Below are positions 1 to 9,491 of a stretch of 64,000 nucleotides of DNA, in pieces; the first letter of the stretch is position 1, and each line of letters starts with the position of its first letter. The translations under genes and the position numbers were made by a program. The notes below the pieces were generated by a model. It saw nothing but the letters and a program-made list of their open reading frames with translations. It was not told the origin of the DNA and ran no database searches. Origin of the DNA: a virus. Location: positions 124,001-188,000 of IMG/VR virus record IMGVR_UViG_3300032308_002010, one strand, 5' to 3'.

Positions 1-2966
1 GATTGTTTTGTTTTGCACGTCTTTGCGCCGCTTGCGATATCCGTGCAAAGACCTTTGCACGGATCACACTCTTTATTGAAGTCAACCTCGACACACGCAT
101 CTTCGCCGGCGCAGTTTTTATCGCAGCATGTTTTTGTTGCGCACTTTGCCGACTCGCATGTGGCGTTGTCAACCCAGCTGTGCGTAACATTCGGCGCCTG
201 CCCGAGAGCCTGACATTCTTGTTTTGTTTTTTGTATGCACTCGGCCGCGGTTGTTTTAGTGCCGTCTGTGGTGACTTTACAGCAGACGCCACATTTTTCA
301 TCGCTGCCGCACGGGCCAGCCCAGCCGGCTTTTTTGGGTATTTTTGTTCCGTCGCTTTTTGTGCATTCTTCGCAATTGTAATTATTGTCGCCGCAACACT
401 CGGCTTTTGTTTTGCACGTAATTTCACCGGGATTGCCGGCAGCGTCATATGCCGTACATAACCCAGCGCATTCGTCGCAGTCTTTGTTGAAATCAACGTC
501 AATGCAGGCGTTCTTCCCTGTGCACTCGTCTACATCACAGCACTTCTTTGTTGCACATCGCGCGTTTTCACAATTTGTAAACGGTTTCCACGTCCAAAAC
601 ACATTTGCGTTTACATTGCCGGCTTCGTTAGCGCACTGATCTTGATCTAACTCTTTGCACTCAACTTTGATAGTTTTGCCGTTGGTATCCGTTGTCACGC
701 CGCAACAGACGCCGCATTTCTTAGCATCAGCACACGAGGCGTCCCACGCGAATTTTGCGTGATCGCCGGGGTTGCACGGTTCACACTTTTTACCGTCGGC
801 GCCGCAGCAATCGTCTTTTGTCTTGCATTTAACGTCTGTTTCATTTCCGTCTTCGTCGTATTCAGTACACAGACCTTTGCATTCGTCGCATTCTTCGTCG
901 TAGTCGACGTCGATACACTGAGACTTGCCGCATGACGTTTCTTTGCAGCATTTTTTAGCTCGGCATATGACCGAGTCGCATGTTTCGTATTGATGCCATG
1001 TCCCAGTTTTGTTTGGATCTTCATTTATTTCGGCGCATTCTTTGTACGTAATTTCTTGGCACGAGGAATCTACAATTTCTCCATCTTCATAAGTAAGTTC
1101 GCAACATACACCGCATTTTTCGTTTTCGTCGCCAATGTTTGTGCAGATAGGCGACCAGCTGTGTGTCTTACAATCTGCCGGGCCGTTACATTTTTGTCCG
1201 TCGTCGCCGCAGCATGAAGTTTTTGTCGCGCACGATTCCTCGTCTGTTTCAAGCTCAACACACCGCCCTTCGCACTCATCGCAGTCGTCTTCGAAGTCGA
1301 CTGTTTTGCAACCTATTTTACCGGTCTCTTCGCAAATGACCCCGCAGCATTGTTTTGTCGCGCATTTTGTACTTTCGCACGTTTCGAATGCACGCCAACT
1401 TGCCACAATGTTGTCGCCGTTATCTTGAGCTTCGCATTCTGTTTTTGTGGTATCGGATTGGCATTCAGTATCCTCTACACCTGTCCCATCTTCTTTTAAA
1501 GTGATGATGCAACATACACCACATTTTTCTGGGTCAGCGCACGCAGAATTCCAAGAAAACTCTGCAGTGTTTCCTTCTTTGCACGGATCGCCTACACATT
1601 TTGTTCCGTCTTCTCCGCAGCAATCTGACTTTGTTGCGCACCGTTTTTCATTGTCTGCGTTTTTAACACAAAATCCGCGGCATTTATCCTCGCAGTTGTC
1701 TTTGCTAACTTTAACGCAAACAACCTGTTTTGATTCTTCGCATTCAACCTCACGACAACAATTTACGCCATCGCAAACAGAACAGGTCTCGAACGGAAAC
1801 CACGAGCCTTTGCTTTTGCCCATCGGGGTTTTTAAATCTTCACATTCGTCTCGTGTCTTCGGACCTTCGTCGCACTCTTTGCCTATTTCTTTGGTTTCAT
1901 CTTCGTTGTAAACGGTTACGCAGCAAATTCCGCACTCGTCTGGGTTACTTCCGCAGTTGGTTTCTTCCCACAAAAATTTTGCGCCTTCTGGGCACAAAAT
2001 ATTGATACATTTTTCTTCGCCTTCTCCGCAGCAATCTTGTTTTGTTTTACAGCTAGACTGTGGGCATTTGTGATTAACGTCTTGACCTTTTGGCGGACGG
2101 CTAAAAGACAAGTCAGTGCATACGCCAATGCACGGATCACACGTCGCTTTATCGCCGTGCCGGCAGACGGCCCGCGTTTCGTCGCCTAACTCGGCTTCGT
2201 AGCAACAAACAGGATTGCAAATATCTTCGTTGTCTGTATTAGCGTGCCATACGCCGCCGACACCTGCGCCAACCCCAACCGCCGCCTCGCACGTTTCTTT
2301 GGTAATAGGGTCGCCATTTGCGTCTTCTTTCCACGCGCGACCGTTGCGACAGCAAATTCCACAATTAGTGCAGCTAATCGCCTCCCATGCTTGCGGAATT
2401 GTGTGTTTGGGTTCTTCGCCTTCTTCGCCGTTTTTGCAATGCGCAATGCAGCGTGAATTGTCGTCGAGGCAGCACTGCGTTAGTGTGGCGCAATTTACGT
2501 CACGATCATCAATTATTTCTTCGCCGTTTTCGTCATAGGCAAATGTTGTGCACTTACCGGCACAGCGATCGCAATCTTCCGGTTCTGGATAACAACGAAC
2601 TTGCTGACAATCTTTTACTTTTTTGCAGCAAGGTTTATCGCCGCAACAGCATTTGTCGGGGTCTTGCTGCGGCGAACGAGATAAACCGCCGCCAACTTTG
2701 ACAAGCTTTCCGTTTTGAACAATGAATACTGGGTCGCTGTCTTCGCAGTCGGAGCAGCACTCGGCAACGCGCCCGTAAGGCACATTTATCTTGTTGCCGT
2801 TTTTTGGCAGCGTAATTTCTTTATTTCTCGTGCAGTCGGCGGCGCTAATTTTGTTGACGTCATTTTCGCCGGCTTTGAGAATAGGTACGCACGCATTCCC
2901 GCCTTTAACGGGAAATCCCTCGTTGTCGTAGAGGTAGATGCAACAGACTTGTGAGTCGGCGGGCAT
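1..2966 (-). CDS. Giant cysteine-rich repeat protein, probable virion surface protein (partial, runs off left edge)
   Basis: Reading the minus strand from an ATG at 2966, six bases after the stop of the upstream collagen-like gene, the frame stays open for at least 988 codons to the window edge, so the C-terminus is missing. The protein is extremely rich in cysteine, often as CC pairs. After roughly 200 N-terminal residues it consists of repeats: a CG[VI]CC motif recurs at about 2346-2363, 1921-1938, 1509-1526, 1101-1118, 702-719 and 280-297, a period of 399-425 bases (133-142 residues). Within a repeat I see further conserved pieces such as CATK, CKTKxDCCGxDG and ECDECxGxC, and Trp residues at fixed places. 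No signal peptide or membrane segment is visible. Acidic residues are common. The cysteines suggest many disulfides or metal sites. Position at the end of the fibre gene series suggests a virion surface protein. I do not recognise the family. Confidence 0.88.
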   Translation of the reverse strand, partial: MPADSQVCCIYLYDNEGFPVKGGNACVPILKAGENDVNKISAADCTRNKEITLPKNGNKINVPYGRVAECCSDCEDSDPVFIVQNGKLVKVGGGLSRSPQQDPDKCCCGDKPCCKKVKDCQQVRCYPEPEDCDRCAGKCTTFAYDENGEEIIDDRDVNCATLTQCCLDDNSRCIAHCKNGEEGEEPKHTIPQAWEAISCTNCGICCRNGRAWKEDANGDPITKETCEAAVGVGAGVGGVWHANTDNEDICNPVCCYEAELGDETRAVCRHGDKATCDPCIGVCTDLSFSRPPKGQDVNHKCPQSSCKTKQDCCGEGEEKCINILCPEGAKFLWEETNCGSNPDECGICCVTVYNEDETKEIGKECDEGPKTRDECEDLKTPMGKSKGSWFPFETCSVCDGVNCCREVECEESKQVVCVKVSKDNCEDKCRGFCVKNADNEKRCATKSDCCGEDGTKCVGDPCKEGNTAEFSWNSACADPEKCGVCCIITLKEDGTGVEDTECQSDTTKTECEAQDNGDNIVASWRAFETCESTKCATKQCCGVICEETGKIGCKTVDFEDDCDECEGRCVELETDEESCATKTSCCGDDGQKCNGPADCKTHSWSPICTNIGDENEKCGVCCELTYEDGEIVDSSCQEITYKECAEINEDPNKTGTWHQYETCDSVICRAKKCCKETSCGKSQCIDVDYDEECDECKGLCTEYDEDGNETDVKCKTKDDCCGADGKKCEPCNPGDHAKFAWDASCADAKKCGVCCGVTTDTNGKTIKVECKELDQDQCANEAGNVNANVFWTWKPFTNCENARCATKKCCDVDECTGKNACIDVDFNKDCDECAGLCTAYDAAGNPGEITCKTKAECCGDNNYNCEECTKSDGTKIPKKAGWAGPCGSDEKCGVCCKVTTDGTKTTAAECIQKTKQECQALGQAPNVTHSWVDNATCESAKCATKTCCDKNCAGEDACVEVDFNKECDPCKGLCTDIASGAKTCKTKQ

Positions 2967-2972
2967 GATAGC

Positions 2973-5303
2973 TTAGATATAAAAGCCCGTAATAATCACT
3001 GTCGCGGAATAGTTATCATAACGTGTACCGGGATCTGTTACCCGCAACACAACGTTTTTAATTCCGCTAACAGTATTTGTGAGCGCGGCTGCCGAGTAAA
3101 GACACAATACGCCGCCGGGTGTGTTTAAACTTGAATTGATTGCAACAGGCGTTGGCATAAGGTTTTGATTGTCTGTTGCGTTATAGACAACAATTGTTGG
3201 CCCGGTTAGAGAAGATCCGCCAAGCGTAGTTTGCGCTGTTTCACACAAAACAAACACAGATGTCAGCACAAATGTACCGCCGGCTGTAGTAAATAATAGC
3301 GCGTCTGCGGTGGCGTTTCCTGATGTTTGTAACGCTACGTTTGATAGTTTCTTAGTGACGAGTGCGCTTAGTGTCGCGCTATACGCTTGTACGTCGGCGC
3401 CAATAACTAATTGCGGCCCTGTCGCTCCGCGTGGGCCTGTCGAACCGGTTGAGCCGGTGGGGCCAGCTATTCCTTGTACGCCTGTCGCGCCGCGTGGGCC
3501 TGTTGCGCCTGTTTGCCCGCGCAGCCCTGTAGCGCCTGTAGGTCCGTTGATACCAATATCACCAGTTGAGCCAACGGGACCAGTAGCGCCAACGTCACCA
3601 GCGGGTCCGGTTGCGCCCGTAGGGCCGATCGGCCCGGTTGAGCCCTGCGGACCAGTTACGCCCATAAGCCCCGAAATACCAGATACGCCAGTTGCGCCCG
3701 CGGGCCCACTAGGACCTGTCGGGCCGGACGCGCCAATAACGCCGGTGGGGCCTATTACACCTGTCGCGCCCGTTGCCCCAGCCGCGCCCGTCGCGCCCGT
3801 TAAACCACTTAAACCAGTTGCACCAAGTGCGCCTGTGACTCCTTGGGTTCCGGTTGGACCTGTAACGCCAGTCGATCCGCTGGGTCCAGTAGCGCCCCCC
3901 GGCCCGATTAAAACACCGATGTTGCGCCATGTTGTACCGGTCCAATATAACCCTGTACCGGTTGTCGCATTTAAGGGCAGCTCTAAAGACGTAAGAGCCC
4001 CGGAACCAACAATCCAAATGTCGCCAATTTGCGGTGTTCCTGTTGGCGGCCATACATCAGACGTGCCGCGCATAACAACGCCAACACCTGTCGCGCCTGT
4101 CGCGCCCCGCGGACCTGTTGCGCCGGATAAACCAGTTTCGCCGGTCTGCCCTATTGCGCCGGAAACGCCTGTAGCGCCTGTAGCGCCATTAGGCCCCGTT
4201 GCGCCGTTAACGCCCGTAGCGCCCTGTGATCCAGTTAATCCGGTCGCGCCTGTCGGGCCGGCTACGCCAGTGGCGCCTGCGGGACCTGTTATGCCTGTCT
4301 GACCTGTTGAACCTGTTGCGCCTGTTGGGCCAGCTATACCTGTCGCGCCAGTAACTCCGGCACTACCTGTTGTTCCGGGAATGCCTTGCGCCCCGGTAGC
4401 GCCAGTTGCACCGATATCTCCATTTAAACCAGCAACGCCAGTTGCGCCGGCGACACCAGTGGCACCGACCGGGCCGATTGAGCCCGTGGGACCAGCTGGT
4501 CCGGCGGCGCCTGAAACACCTGCAGGCCCTGTCGCGCCGATGACGCCTGTGGGACCAGCTATACCTGTCGGCCCTGTGGCGCCTTGAATACCCTGCAAAC
4601 CAGCAGGCCCAGAAATACCCTGTAAGCCCTGCGGACCTTGTTGACCGGCAGAACCTTGTAAACCCTGTGGACCGGCAACGCCTGTTGCGCCGGTTGCTCC
4701 TGCTGTACCTGCCGCCCCTGTAGCGCCGTTAATACCCGTGGCGCCTACTGGCCCGGCAATTCCGGTTGCGCCCGTAGCGCCAGACACGCCCGCCGGCCCC
4801 ACACCACCTATTAAACCAGTTGGACCTGCGATACCGGTGGCGCCAGCAAAGCCGCGCGGGCCGGTCGGGCCCGCCGCACCAGCGGCACCTGTAGCGCCCG
4901 TAACACCCCGTACTCCACTCGAACCGGTCGCGCCCGTTACACCGGGCATACCTGACGCGCCAGTAGCGCCTGTGACGCCAGATAAACCAGTTGGACCTGT
5001 AGCGCCAGCTAATCCTGTTTGACCAGTTAAACCGGTCGCGCCACTTGTACCGTGAGATCCCTGCAAACCAGTTGCGCCGGTTTCGCCACGCGGACCTGTT
5101 ACGCCAGTCGCGCCACGAGAACCAGTCGGGCCCATAGCGCCGACAACGCCAGTAGCGCCCCGCGGCCCTGTCGCGCCTGTTGCGCCAAGCGGGCCCTCTG
5201 TTACGCGTAAAGTTGGAAGGGCCGCACCATTTACTTTTTTTTCGACGCTCGACGTTTCTGAATTTTGATTGCCGTCGAAGTTAGTTGGGCGCGTGTCGGT
5301 CAT
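2973..5303 (-). CDS. Collagen-like fibre protein with interrupted Gly-X-Y domain
   Basis: 776 residues. A short polar N-terminus (about 1-35) leads into a long Gly-X-Y domain dominated by GATGPTG-type triplets (about 36-410). A globular island of about 70 residues (WPP then GDIW motif) interrupts it, a second Gly-X-Y stretch runs to about 645, and a beta-rich C-terminal region of about 125 residues without collagen repeats follows. In phages and bacteria such proteins form trimeric triple-helical fibres, the C-terminal knob serving as trimerisation or adhesion domain. No signal peptide is seen, as expected for a phage structural protein. The Thr/Ala/Pro-rich triplets offer many O-glycosylation sites. 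The gene is directly followed by the cysteine-rich giant and preceded by a 159-base leader without a gene. Confidence 0.93.
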
Positions 5304-5462: not shown

Positions 5463-5630
5463 TTAGTTTTCGCGCCGGGTAGTGGCTAGTTCCGCAATTT
5501 TAGCTTGCACTTCTTCCGGCGAGCCGTCAAAAGTTTCAAATATTGTCCAAGTGATCATGTCAGGGTGTACGTCGTCAATAACTGAAATTACTTCGCCGGT
5601 CGCGGAATTGTAAACAAGTCTTTGCATCAT
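5463..5630 (-). CDS. Small hypothetical protein, 55 aa
   Basis: Short frame starting with a double ATG at 5630 and ending with TAA at 5463-5465. The start overlaps the stop of the preceding fibre gene by four bases (ATGA), a typical translational coupling in this genome. The product begins MMQRLVYNSATGEV and is acidic with a basic C-terminus. It resembles the small accessory proteins that often follow tail-fibre genes (chaperones or tail assembly proteins), but I cannot assign a family. Coding status rests on the coupling and on a protein-like composition. Confidence 0.7.
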   Translation of the reverse strand: MMQRLVYNSATGEVISVIDDVHPDMITWTIFETFDGSPEEVQAKIAELATTRREN

Positions 5631-7570
5631 AGATTCACCGATACCGTCACGCCACGAGTGACAAGTGTCTTTAAAGAGTTATTTGCTTTGAGAATAGTCG
5701 CGGTGCCGGTGCCGGCGGCTGTTTGCGATGTGATTGTATATGTAAACTGATTCGCGTTGACCACAGTGATGATCGCAATTCTGTTTGCGTTGGTCGCGGT
5801 TTGAACATTGGCTATACGCAGCACGTCACCTGTTACATATCCGTGATTTGTCATATTGACCGTGCAGGTTGTTCCAGAACAGGAGAGGTTGGGAAGCGTT
5901 GGCGAAGTTTGTAGCGTCACGTTGGTGGTAGAACCACTGGGCGGCGAATTGCCGTGAATCACGACAGCAACCTGACCAGCCACGTAGTTCGTGCCGCCGT
6001 TGGTGATTGTAAACGAAGATACAGCGTTACCGGTGAGGATTGCTGCAGCGCCAGCATTAGTTCCTGAACTCGCCCCGTTCAGTCGTATGATTGTGACGGT
6101 TGGAGCGCTAGTGTATCGCTGTCCGCCGTTGGTGACTGTGATTCCCGTGATCACACCACCAGACACAGTAGCGGTTGCCGTCGCCCCCCAGCCGTTAGAA
6201 GTGTTTGATAAGTTTACATTTCTTCCTGTTCCGTAAGTCATCGTGCCGTTTGTGCCGTCAAGCGCCGCGAGTTTGTCTAAAATGTGATTGACGGCTGTTT
6301 GTGTTAGCGCGGTATTTGTAGCAGAAATGTCACCAATTGCTTTTAAATTGCCGACCGTAAAATTTTGCAAACCATTGGGAAGCGTTATGTTATTGCTGAG
6401 GTGTTCCAGCGCTGGCAAATTTAGTGTCTGCAGCGCACTGGTAATGTTTATGCTTGACGCACTTTTAAGTGCTGGGGCCGACAGGGCGTTCATGTACGAG
6501 CCAGCGACTTGAATGCCGTTTCCTCCGACATACGTCAGCACAGGGAGCGACAGCGAACTGTAAGACGTCAAGCTCGACGTGCTGATCCCGCCCTGCGCCC
6601 ACTCTAACGCAGGAAACGATAGTGCGCCGCTTTGCAAAGTTGACGTACTAATTGTGCTTATTGTAAAACCTACCTGCCCTAGCGCGCGGAGAACTGGGAG
6701 ACTGATTGAACCAAGCCCCATAGGAAAAGCACCGTAACTTAAATTAATGCCACCGGCATATATCAACGCCGGACAAGATACGGCGGTGCCGACGGTATTA
6801 GTGTTGTAGTTAGGCAATAAAGACAGCGTGCCGACAACGCCCTCCAAATCCCCAAAGGTCAAGCTTGCGGTGGAGTTTGCGGCGGTTTGCACACTAAGCG
6901 CAGACACCCATTTCCCAGTGTAGGCTACCGCGCCGGAAGACAGCAGTAAAGTTAGCGGCTGCGAAAACGCATAAAAAATTTCTGGCATCGCGCCGGTTGC
7001 GGTGATTTGTAACGCGGATGTGGCCGCGGCGGGGGACGCACCGAGCGTTGTTAACATAGCCGCTGCTGTAGTGTCGTCCAGCAGGTTTCGCGCGGCGGCA
7101 GTACATGTAATTTCTTCAACTACGCCAGCGCCAGCAGTAGACCGCCCCAGCAACCTATCTGTAGCCGACACATTTTGCATCTTGGCGTACGTAACACCGG
7201 CGTCGGCAATATCGGCCGTCACAACAGCGCCCGCATTAATCGTCCACGTTTCGCCCGCAGCAGAAACGGTGATGTCGCCTTTGTTGCCGTTTGTTACGTT
7301 ACCGGAACCATAGGCAAGTGAGTTCCACGCAGTCGTGCCGTCACCGATCTTCCAGCGGCGAGTGTCTGTTTCGTATGCAACCTCACCTGCCGCTAGCACA
7401 GGATTTGTAACGGCAATATTGGCGGCTGTATCGCGCCTATTTTGAATTGTCGGCAGCGGTGACGACGAAGACGCAATAACGCCGCAGTTGATGACAAGCG
7501 CGTTGTTAATTTTTGCCGTCGTAATCGCAGCGTCGGCGATGCCGTCTGATTGTATGCGTTGTCGTGTCAT
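5627..7570 (-). CDS. Tail-fibre protein with leucine-rich-repeat-like domain
   Basis: 647 residues. The N-terminal part contains the phage-fibre motif GEVAYETDTRRWKIGDGTTAW, seen near the N-terminus of many tail fibres and of Mtd-type proteins, preceded by repeats of the ITTAKI type. Residues about 230-430 form irregular repeats with LSLPVL, LSFPAL, LNLPAL spaced 20-30 residues apart, resembling BspA-type leucine-rich repeats, a ligand-binding solenoid. Two copies of an Ig-like or beta repeat with TVTNGGxxYTSAP / TITNGGTNYVAG follow. The gene therefore probably encodes a receptor-recognition fibre. It lies next to the divergently transcribed glycosyltransferases and overlaps the next small gene by four bases. 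Confidence 0.85.
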   Translation of the reverse strand: MTRQRIQSDGIADAAITTAKINNALVINCGVIASSSSPLPTIQNRRDTAANIAVTNPVLAAGEVAYETDTRRWKIGDGTTAWNSLAYGSGNVTNGNKGDITVSAAGETWTINAGAVVTADIADAGVTYAKMQNVSATDRLLGRSTAGAGVVEEITCTAAARNLLDDTTAAAMLTTLGASPAAATSALQITATGAMPEIFYAFSQPLTLLLSSGAVAYTGKWVSALSVQTAANSTASLTFGDLEGVVGTLSLLPNYNTNTVGTAVSCPALIYAGGINLSYGAFPMGLGSISLPVLRALGQVGFTISTISTSTLQSGALSFPALEWAQGGISTSSLTSYSSLSLPVLTYVGGNGIQVAGSYMNALSAPALKSASSINITSALQTLNLPALEHLSNNITLPNGLQNFTVGNLKAIGDISATNTALTQTAVNHILDKLAALDGTNGTMTYGTGRNVNLSNTSNGWGATATATVSGGVITGITVTNGGQRYTSAPTVTIIRLNGASSGTNAGAAAILTGNAVSSFTITNGGTNYVAGQVAVVIHGNSPPSGSTTNVTLQTSPTLPNLSCSGTTCTVNMTNHGYVTGDVLRIANVQTATNANRIAIITVVNANQFTYTITSQTAAGTGTATILKANNSLKTLVTRGVTVSVNL

Positions 7571-7604: not shown

Positions 7605-7719
7605 CACGGTATTTTAGTGGCAAAACAAGTAAACATCGAGCCCAAAGGCTGTAGCGGCGTACGCCAAAATAACGTATCATTTCTCGGGCTGTTTTACGCT
7701 AACAAATCGGAGAGGTGTG

Positions 7720-8616
7720 ATGCTAAACAACAAGCTCGTCTACTACGGCTATGACCACCCGCAAATAAACCCTATGGTTGAGGCGCTGTGCGCGCAATTA
7801 GGGCTTGAATTTCATTTTGAAGAGATCGTGCGTATATCCGCGCCAGATGAGCCGCAAGAACCAACGCGCCGAAGCCCGTACCGCGTATTTTTGAAAACTT
7901 CTAGTTGCGCCAACATGGTCTGTATGTGGAACGGCATGCACCGTTACGGGCCGCTATTAACAGACCTGTGCAACGCCAAAGCCATACCGAAATTTTACAT
8001 TGAATACGGATTATTCCCACACCGCGAAAACATCTTTGTCGACCCCGTAGGTTCGTGCGGGCGCTCTATTTTGAATAATGATTTGTCTTGGGTTACGCCG
8101 GCAGATATGACCGCGCTGCAAAACAAGCGTGAAGAAATGCAAGGTTGGTATGAAGTCAGCGACGATGACTACATTATGGTTCCGCTGCAAAATGAAAGCG
8201 ACCCGCAAGTTCTGTATTACACAAAATACAAAACAATGCACGAATTTGTATCAGACGTGGTCGCTATGTACCCCAACAATAGAATTGTCGTTAAAGAGCA
8301 CCCAACAGAAGAAGCATCATTTCAGCAGGAGTGGATGCGAAATAACCCAGACTCGTCAATTGAGTTTGTGGCGGGACCAGTAGATTTTTTACGTGTTGCC
8401 GCGAAAGCTTCTGTTGTTGTTGGACTCACGTCGACCACGCTGTACGAGGCTGGCGTACTTGGCAAGACTGTCGTAGCGCTTGGAAATCACCCGCTAGCCG
8501 GAGCCGACGAAACAGATAAAGAAAAAATTCTTGCTGGCGCGCTGGCGTTGAACGTCAATATGGAAACTGGAAACATAAAGTCTGTATTAGATCGCTTCGG
8601 CATACAGCCGTTATGA
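7720..8616 (+). CDS. KpsC/KpsS-like (capsule polysaccharide synthesis type) glycosyltransferase, first copy
   Basis: 298 residues from ATG 7720 with a good Shine-Dalgarno (GGAGAGG). Features of the capsule-biosynthesis transferase superfamily (KpsC/KpsS/LpsZ, PF05159-like): a CMWNG motif near the start, YIEYGLFP, the central IMVPLQNESDPQV block, IVVKEHPTEE and a C-terminal SVVVGLTSTTLYEAGVLGK sugar-nucleotide-binding-like segment. Known members transfer Kdo to lipid or polysaccharide acceptors, but relatives use other sugars. This is one of only two genes on the plus strand and lies inside a fibre gene array, so the acceptor may be a phage fibre or the host envelope. It is clearly paralogous to the next gene and coupled to it by an ATGA overlap. 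Confidence 0.8.
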   Translation: MLNNKLVYYGYDHPQINPMVEALCAQLGLEFHFEEIVRISAPDEPQEPTRRSPYRVFLKTSSCANMVCMWNGMHRYGPLLTDLCNAKAIPKFYIEYGLFPHRENIFVDPVGSCGRSILNNDLSWVTPADMTALQNKREEMQGWYEVSDDDYIMVPLQNESDPQVLYYTKYKTMHEFVSDVVAMYPNNRIVVKEHPTEEASFQQEWMRNNPDSSIEFVAGPVDFLRVAAKASVVVGLTSTTLYEAGVLGKTVVALGNHPLAGADETDKEKILAGALALNVNMETGNIKSVLDRFGIQPL

Positions 8617-9491
8617 CGAACAAAAAACTTTTTCACTACGGCGGCAACAGTATTTCCCGCAAAGCGTTTGAAGAAGCGCTTTTAAGAAAATTGGCTGACG
8701 ATTACGGCTTAGAGTTAGAAATAGTTTGGCCTGCGTGCCCACATGTCGCTTTTGTAGAAGCGGCTAAGACAGCCAAATACGCAAATTTAATTACTCTGTG
8801 GAACGGGTCTTTGTGTTGCGGGCCATTGTTCACCCGTCTATGCAAAGCAAAAAAAATTCCACACTGTTATCTAGAGTGGGGAATGCTGCCGCAAGAGACA
8901 CACATCTTTTTTGACCCGCGCGGGTTTGCAGGCGATTCGATCATGAACTATGACGTGTCGTGGGTAGGGCAGGAAGATTTAGATAACTTGGCGCGCAAAC
9001 GACAAGAATTGCAAAGCTGGTATCCGCGTAAAGACGAGGGCTACATACTTGTACCCCTGCAAAAAGAAAACGATACGCAGATTTTGTATCACACGCCATA
9101 TTTATCTATGAACGAATTTGTTGAAGATGTGATTCGCCGCTACCCAAAAAACAAAATTATGGTCAAGCCGCACCCGAAAGACGACAACGTGCAGCTTTTT
9201 ATGTCGCGCTGGCGGGCTGAAAAAAGAATTGAAATTGTGCCGGCACCAGCAGATTTTTTACGTTTGGCGGCAAAAGCAACACTGGTTGTCGGCCTAACTT
9301 CTACAACGCTATACGAGGCGGGCGTATTAGGCGTACCAGTCGTATCATTAGCGCGGCACCCAATGTCAATCCACAGCCCACACGACAAAGAACGCGTGCT
9401 TGCCGCGGCTGTTGCGCTTAACTTAGATAGTAAAACCGGCGATTTAAAGCCGCTGCTAGACCGCTTTGGTATAGTGCCTCGCGCCTATTGA
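8613..9491 (+). CDS. KpsC/KpsS-like glycosyltransferase, second copy
   Basis: 292 residues, ATG overlapping the previous stop. It aligns with the first copy over its whole length (LWNGSLCCGPLF, CYLEWGMLP, ILVPLQKENDTQI, IMVKPHPKDD, LVVGLTSTTLYEAGVLG), so the pair arose by tandem duplication. The two copies differ at many positions, suggesting different sugars or acceptors rather than a recent duplicate. The stop codon overlaps by seven bases the stop of the convergent fibre gene on the other strand, leaving no room for an intergenic terminator. Confidence 0.8.
   Translation: MTNKKLFHYGGNSISRKAFEEALLRKLADDYGLELEIVWPACPHVAFVEAAKTAKYANLITLWNGSLCCGPLFTRLCKAKKIPHCYLEWGMLPQETHIFFDPRGFAGDSIMNYDVSWVGQEDLDNLARKRQELQSWYPRKDEGYILVPLQKENDTQILYHTPYLSMNEFVEDVIRRYPKNKIMVKPHPKDDNVQLFMSRWRAEKRIEIVPAPADFLRLAAKATLVVGLTSTTLYEAGVLGVPVVSLARHPMSIHSPHDKERVLAAAVALNLDSKTGDLKPLLDRFGIVPRAY

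Follow-up and report, generated by a model that had tools for sequence, protein, structure and literature searches.

How a virus that is assembled in the reducing cytoplasm could make a heavily disulfide-bonded part is the question raised by a giant cysteine-rich repeat protein encoded at the left end of the window analysed here, a stretch of 64,000 nucleotides (G000:124001-188000) from the 193,815-bp record G000 of a large, uncultured virus of bacteria. The initial annotation had found no stop on the minus strand from an ATG at 2966 to the window edge and had left the full length open. We reproduced this reading and extended it leftwards, where the frame runs 2.3 kb past the edge to a normal stop at G000:121744, giving a gene (G000:121744-126966, minus strand) for a protein of 1,740 residues and ~185 kDa. 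The window holds its 5' 988 codons (1..2966), while the rest lies at G000:121744-124000. Since 1,740 codons without a stop would arise by chance with a probability of only ~4e-35 given this composition, the frame is not fortuitous. The protein is strongly acidic and contains 241 Cys (13.9%, against a median of 1.1% in the other 106 ORFs of at least 200 residues in the record), 36 CC pairs, 29 CxxC motifs, 17 His and 3 Met.

Because repetitive sequence is open to mis-assembled copy number, an artefact of assembly or annotation has to be considered, as does gene decay. The frame is intact, and the same gene is present in a second, separately assembled IMG/VR phage, G001 (199,845-bp contig), making an assembly or frameshift artefact unlikely. 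The G001 protein has 1,738 residues, is 84% identical, can be aligned over its full length and has ten repeats in the same order, and the dN/dS of the repeats between the two phages is 0.063, indicating strong purifying selection. The giant is thus a real gene under selection, and an artefactual or decaying gene is extremely improbable, being already refuted in substance, the exact copy number aside.

The protein consists of an N-terminal region, a half repeat, ten full repeats and a C-terminal tip, all encoded on the minus strand. The N-terminal region (residues 1-104; 2655..2966) is 90% identical between the two phages and is followed by a half repeat, R0 (residues 105-201; 2364..2654), which lacks the first part of the repeat unit. 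The full repeats span residues 202-1519, start with CG[VIA]CC, are ~117-143 residues long, contain conserved Trp and in most cases have 20 Cys; each matches the repeat profile with an E-value of 7e-24 to 6e-46, the profile having been built from these same repeats. R1 (residues 202-344; 1935..2363) has 18 Cys, lacking those at unit positions 19, 46 and 61, and there are 20 in each of R2 (residues 345-481; 1524..1934), R3 (residues 482-617; 1116..1523), R4 (residues 618-750; 717..1115) and R5 (residues 751-891; 294..716). R6 (residues 892-1022) begins at 1..293; its end, R7-R10 and the tip (residues 1520-1740) are encoded outside the window (G000:121744-124000). The six repeats of 133-142 residues described initially were close to what is found in the window, where those starting with CG[VI]CC measure 143, 137, 136, 133 and 141 residues and the cut one 131; four further repeats lie beyond it. 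The tip is of unique sequence and is poorer in Cys than the repeats. All 211 of the 211 repeat Cys are kept between G000 and G001, a single pair of sequences, while the tips share only 39% identity with dS saturated, so that this two-sequence comparison has the appearance of a constrained stem with a fast-changing tip. Scans of IMG/VR with the N-terminus and with the tip returned the known relative only, or nothing.

The pattern of Cys loss bears on the chemistry of the repeats. In both phages the Cys at positions 19 and 46 of R1 are missing together, and the Cys at position 111 of R9 is missing along with that at position 61 of R10. As each is a single co-loss event, they can only suggest that 19 and 46 form a disulfide within the module and that 111 of one bead is bonded to 61 of the next. 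An even number of Cys (20 in most repeats) together with paired losses is as expected of disulfide pairs. Alternatively, the beads could take up zinc or a different soft metal as they fold in the cytoplasm, giving a metal-stabilised stem or a metal store, which would sidestep the problem of the reducing environment and would be in keeping with the acidic composition, the abundance of CxxC and clusters of CC and CxxC such as CDPCKGLC. However, His is scarce, the paired losses fit disulfides, no zinc-family match was obtained in the Pfam search, and beads of 20 Cys in ~130 residues with a conserved Trp and many beta strands are more like extracellular disulfide modules than four-Cys zinc sites. 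Metal-thiolate beads are the chief competing explanation, but we consider them unlikely.

No known family accounts for the protein. Searches of Pfam, NCBIfam and PHROGs with the giant or its repeat gave nothing, or sub-threshold noise only, and a search of INPHARED gave no usable match, so the well-known phage family that could have explained these repeats was not found in any of the four. No eukaryotic disulfide-rich repeat or zinc domain with a Pfam model scored above the Pfam cut-off, and Pfam detected no Gly-X-Y collagen repeats in the giant itself, the collagen being in the neighbouring gene. The PDB sequence search was empty for the whole protein and gave a single match at E=8 for the repeat profile, and a scan of GTDB genomes with that profile gave no confirmed match. 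AlphaFold, with an alignment of 20 repeats, predicted one repeat to be beta-rich (pLDDT 89.4, pTM 0.70), and this secondary structure recurred in each unit of a less confident model of three tandem repeats (pLDDT 74.6, pTM 0.41). Foldseek comparison of the repeat model with PDB and BFVD gave no significant match; a three-finger fold (Ly6, snake toxin, activin receptor) was suggested by several weak matches, the best with an E-value of 3.7, and was rejected. From these searches the repeat appears to be a new family, most of whose length has no described counterpart.

The surroundings of the gene give strong context. As the initial annotation had noted, it directly follows a collagen gene, which we find to encode a protein of 776 residues (2973..5303, minus strand) matching PF01391 with an E-value of 9e-79. 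Only 6 nt without a clear Shine-Dalgarno sequence separate the collagen stop from the giant ATG, which suggests that the two genes are translationally coupled. The collagen-like neighbour also adjoins the giant in G001, with 85% identity. Upstream, at 5627-7570 (minus strand), is a fibre protein with a Major tropism determinant N-terminal domain (Mtd_N, E 6e-14). G000 was placed by its DNA polymerase and baseplate-wedge protein in a lineage of ~200-kb IMG/VR phages, and homology of the latter to phrog_6 suggests a contractile tail. Collagen proteins are common throughout the lineage, and among the 38 lineage records searched, many of them fragments, the giant repeat was found only in the one relative and in none of the other 37.

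The order collagen gene, slot, thymidine kinase gene recurs in ten loci surveyed from nine or more lineage records (L005, L082-L085, L089, L090 and L093-L095), and the occupant of the slot varies. It is the giant in two loci; three-domain Laminin_G_3 proteins (1,035 and 1,052 residues) accompanied by a gene for 333 or 373 residues, the 333-residue product also being Laminin_G_3, in two; 'FFDGF' proteins of 376-393 residues in three; and a 344-residue protein in the two near-identical phages L082 and L089. In the remaining locus the slot is empty. The 1,035-residue protein matches Laminin_G_3 at 1e-57 and also virion-structural PHROG families. The giant therefore shares its genomic slot with concanavalin-like virion proteins of sister phages, although no relation to them in sequence or fold was found. 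Most relatives also encode, beside thymidine kinase, a protein of 150-215 residues beginning 'MAKLT.INGKLRV...CCC'. Residues 79-114 of the giant, PVFIVQNGKLVKVGGGLSRSPQQDPDKCCCGDKPCC (2625..2732, minus strand), align with these 'NGKL..CCC' proteins at 5.6 bits, a score exceeded by 2 of 500 shuffles (p ~0.005), and this resemblance to their N-terminus is no more than suggestive of homology.

In common with tail fibres and receptor-binding proteins, the giant has a location in the fibre block, a variable tip and a history of swapping between relatives. It is very probably a fibre-locus surface protein, and we propose, with a probability of roughly two in three, that it is a virion surface fibre or adhesin with a stem of Cys beads and a variable tip, which is oxidised after lysis. 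The N-terminus (residues 1 to ~115) would anchor the protein to the particle, with the collagen-like product of the upstream gene as a possible attachment point. The ten and a half Cys-packed beads would make up a long, rigid stem, and the C-terminal tip of 220 residues, which evolves fast and in which no receptor-binding domain is recognisable, would touch the host. Since no signal peptide can be seen by eye, the protein would be synthesised in the reducing cytoplasm with its thiols reduced, and lysis would then expose it to oxygen, allowing roughly ten disulfides to form per bead. The virion location, the roles of stem and tip, the disulfide state, the timing of oxidation and receptor binding are all inferred from the gene and its context. 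Of the two suggestions made initially, a surface structure oxidised after release or one that binds metal, the former would be the better reading, helped by synteny with the lectin-like slot proteins, and the latter is less favoured.

It could be argued that the protein is not part of the virion but is a late product released at lysis, for example as extracellular matrix or a decoy, or that it acts at the host surface. Its place in the particle is a prediction from gene context, and the lineage does encode exported proteins, one thioredoxin-like and one trypsin-like, both with a signal peptide. The giant has no such peptide, however, it lies within the fibre block immediately behind the collagen gene, and other occupants of its slot match virion-structural PHROGs, so that a role outside the virion seems quite improbable.

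For the proposed oxidised fibre there is a partial parallel in the Agrobacterium phage Milano, whose tail and fibres are crosslinked by disulfides (PMC10811340). The likeness lies in Cys-rich surface and tail parts being disulfide-crosslinked in the virion, as proposed for the giant; the difference is that Milano has scattered Cys in ordinary tail proteins and G000 a dedicated 241-Cys repeat protein. More tentatively, the giant may represent a new disulfide-bonded repeat fold serving as a phage fibre, with ~100 disulfides per chain formed only after lysis, neighbouring beads linked from 111 to the next 61, and the process perhaps tuned by the exported thioredoxin-like protein of the phage. This protein (G000:107523-107936, plus strand, outside the window) has a thioredoxin fold, a signal peptide and a WCKYC active site, and its gene lies on the other strand from the late genes. 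Of 11 lineage records, 9 have a thioredoxin-family match, and phages that lack the giant are among them, so this protein is not specific evidence for the oxidation model. Pfam gave no DsbA match in G000 or G001; a search for Erv1/Alr was silent, as were its controls. Known phage fibres take the form of beta-helices, beta-prisms, coiled coils or collagen; building a stem from beads packed with Cys, at ~240 Cys per chain, would be another way of engineering one.

The initial annotation, correct about the sequence and largely so about its interpretation, considered such proteins rare in phages, which is too strong. With a generic consensus of the 'GACC...DGSC' motif as a lead, we obtained 14 IMG/VR loci and 348 genome stretches, of which 79 loci were kept, mostly labelled Phycisphaerae or other Planctomycetota; environmental phage contigs were found with GACC-type proteins of 30-95 Cys. 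The module, which has six Cys and no established name, follows the pattern GxCC..DGxC..T...C...W...C....C, that is CC, C, C, aromatic, C, C within 35-50 residues. Alignment by hhalign of positions 2-51 of the repeat unit with it scored 21.0 with all six Cys aligned, whereas 100 column shuffles that preserved the Cys reached 12.1 at best; with a larger GACC set the score was 21.8, compared with at most 16.4 in 60 shuffles, and only the last four Cys aligned. Single-domain HMM scores for GACC in the giant repeat did not exceed the best shuffles. We rejected the possibility that the repeat is a triplet of GACC modules, as sub-modules 2 and 3 did no better than controls. One six-Cys sub-module per repeat thus aligns with GACC, but the other 14 Cys of the ~130-residue repeat are unmatched, and gene neighbourhood and length differ. 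Neither the repeat nor the module is described in Pfam or PHROGs (nor the repeat in NCBIfam), even though the module is present in numerous Planctomycetota as well as in environmental phages. Given its presence there, Cys-rich proteins are not as uncommon in phages as was claimed, and two of the phage proteins (L103 and L107) have N-terminal collagen repeats fused to the Cys modules, so the combination of collagen and Cys modules is found fused elsewhere.

The lineage itself has a second Cys-rich protein, encoded outside the window in the tail/baseplate block (G000:17715-22511, L010:7715-12511, minus strand). It has 1,598 residues and 70 Cys; repeats of ~63 residues, each with 4 Cys, precede a collagen domain of ~400 residues, and the protein is conserved in G001 and G032. 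Like the giant it has Cys-containing repeats, here in a collagen-bearing tail protein, but its repeats are smaller, its collagen is in the same chain and it is kept in other lineage members.

Some further features of the record deserve mention. The trypsin-like protein (G000:100565-101413, minus strand, outside the window) has a signal peptide and, by eye, the serine protease motifs TAAH and GDSGGG, and is probably an exported phage protease. Two paralogous capsule-synthesis or polysialyltransferase-like genes at 7717-9491 (plus strand) lie on the strand opposite to the flanking fibre genes. Finally, a tmRNA with the tag GAYAPALAA is found among several tRNA genes (L005:5912-6256, minus strand, equivalent to G000:113912-114256) and might help to find the host.
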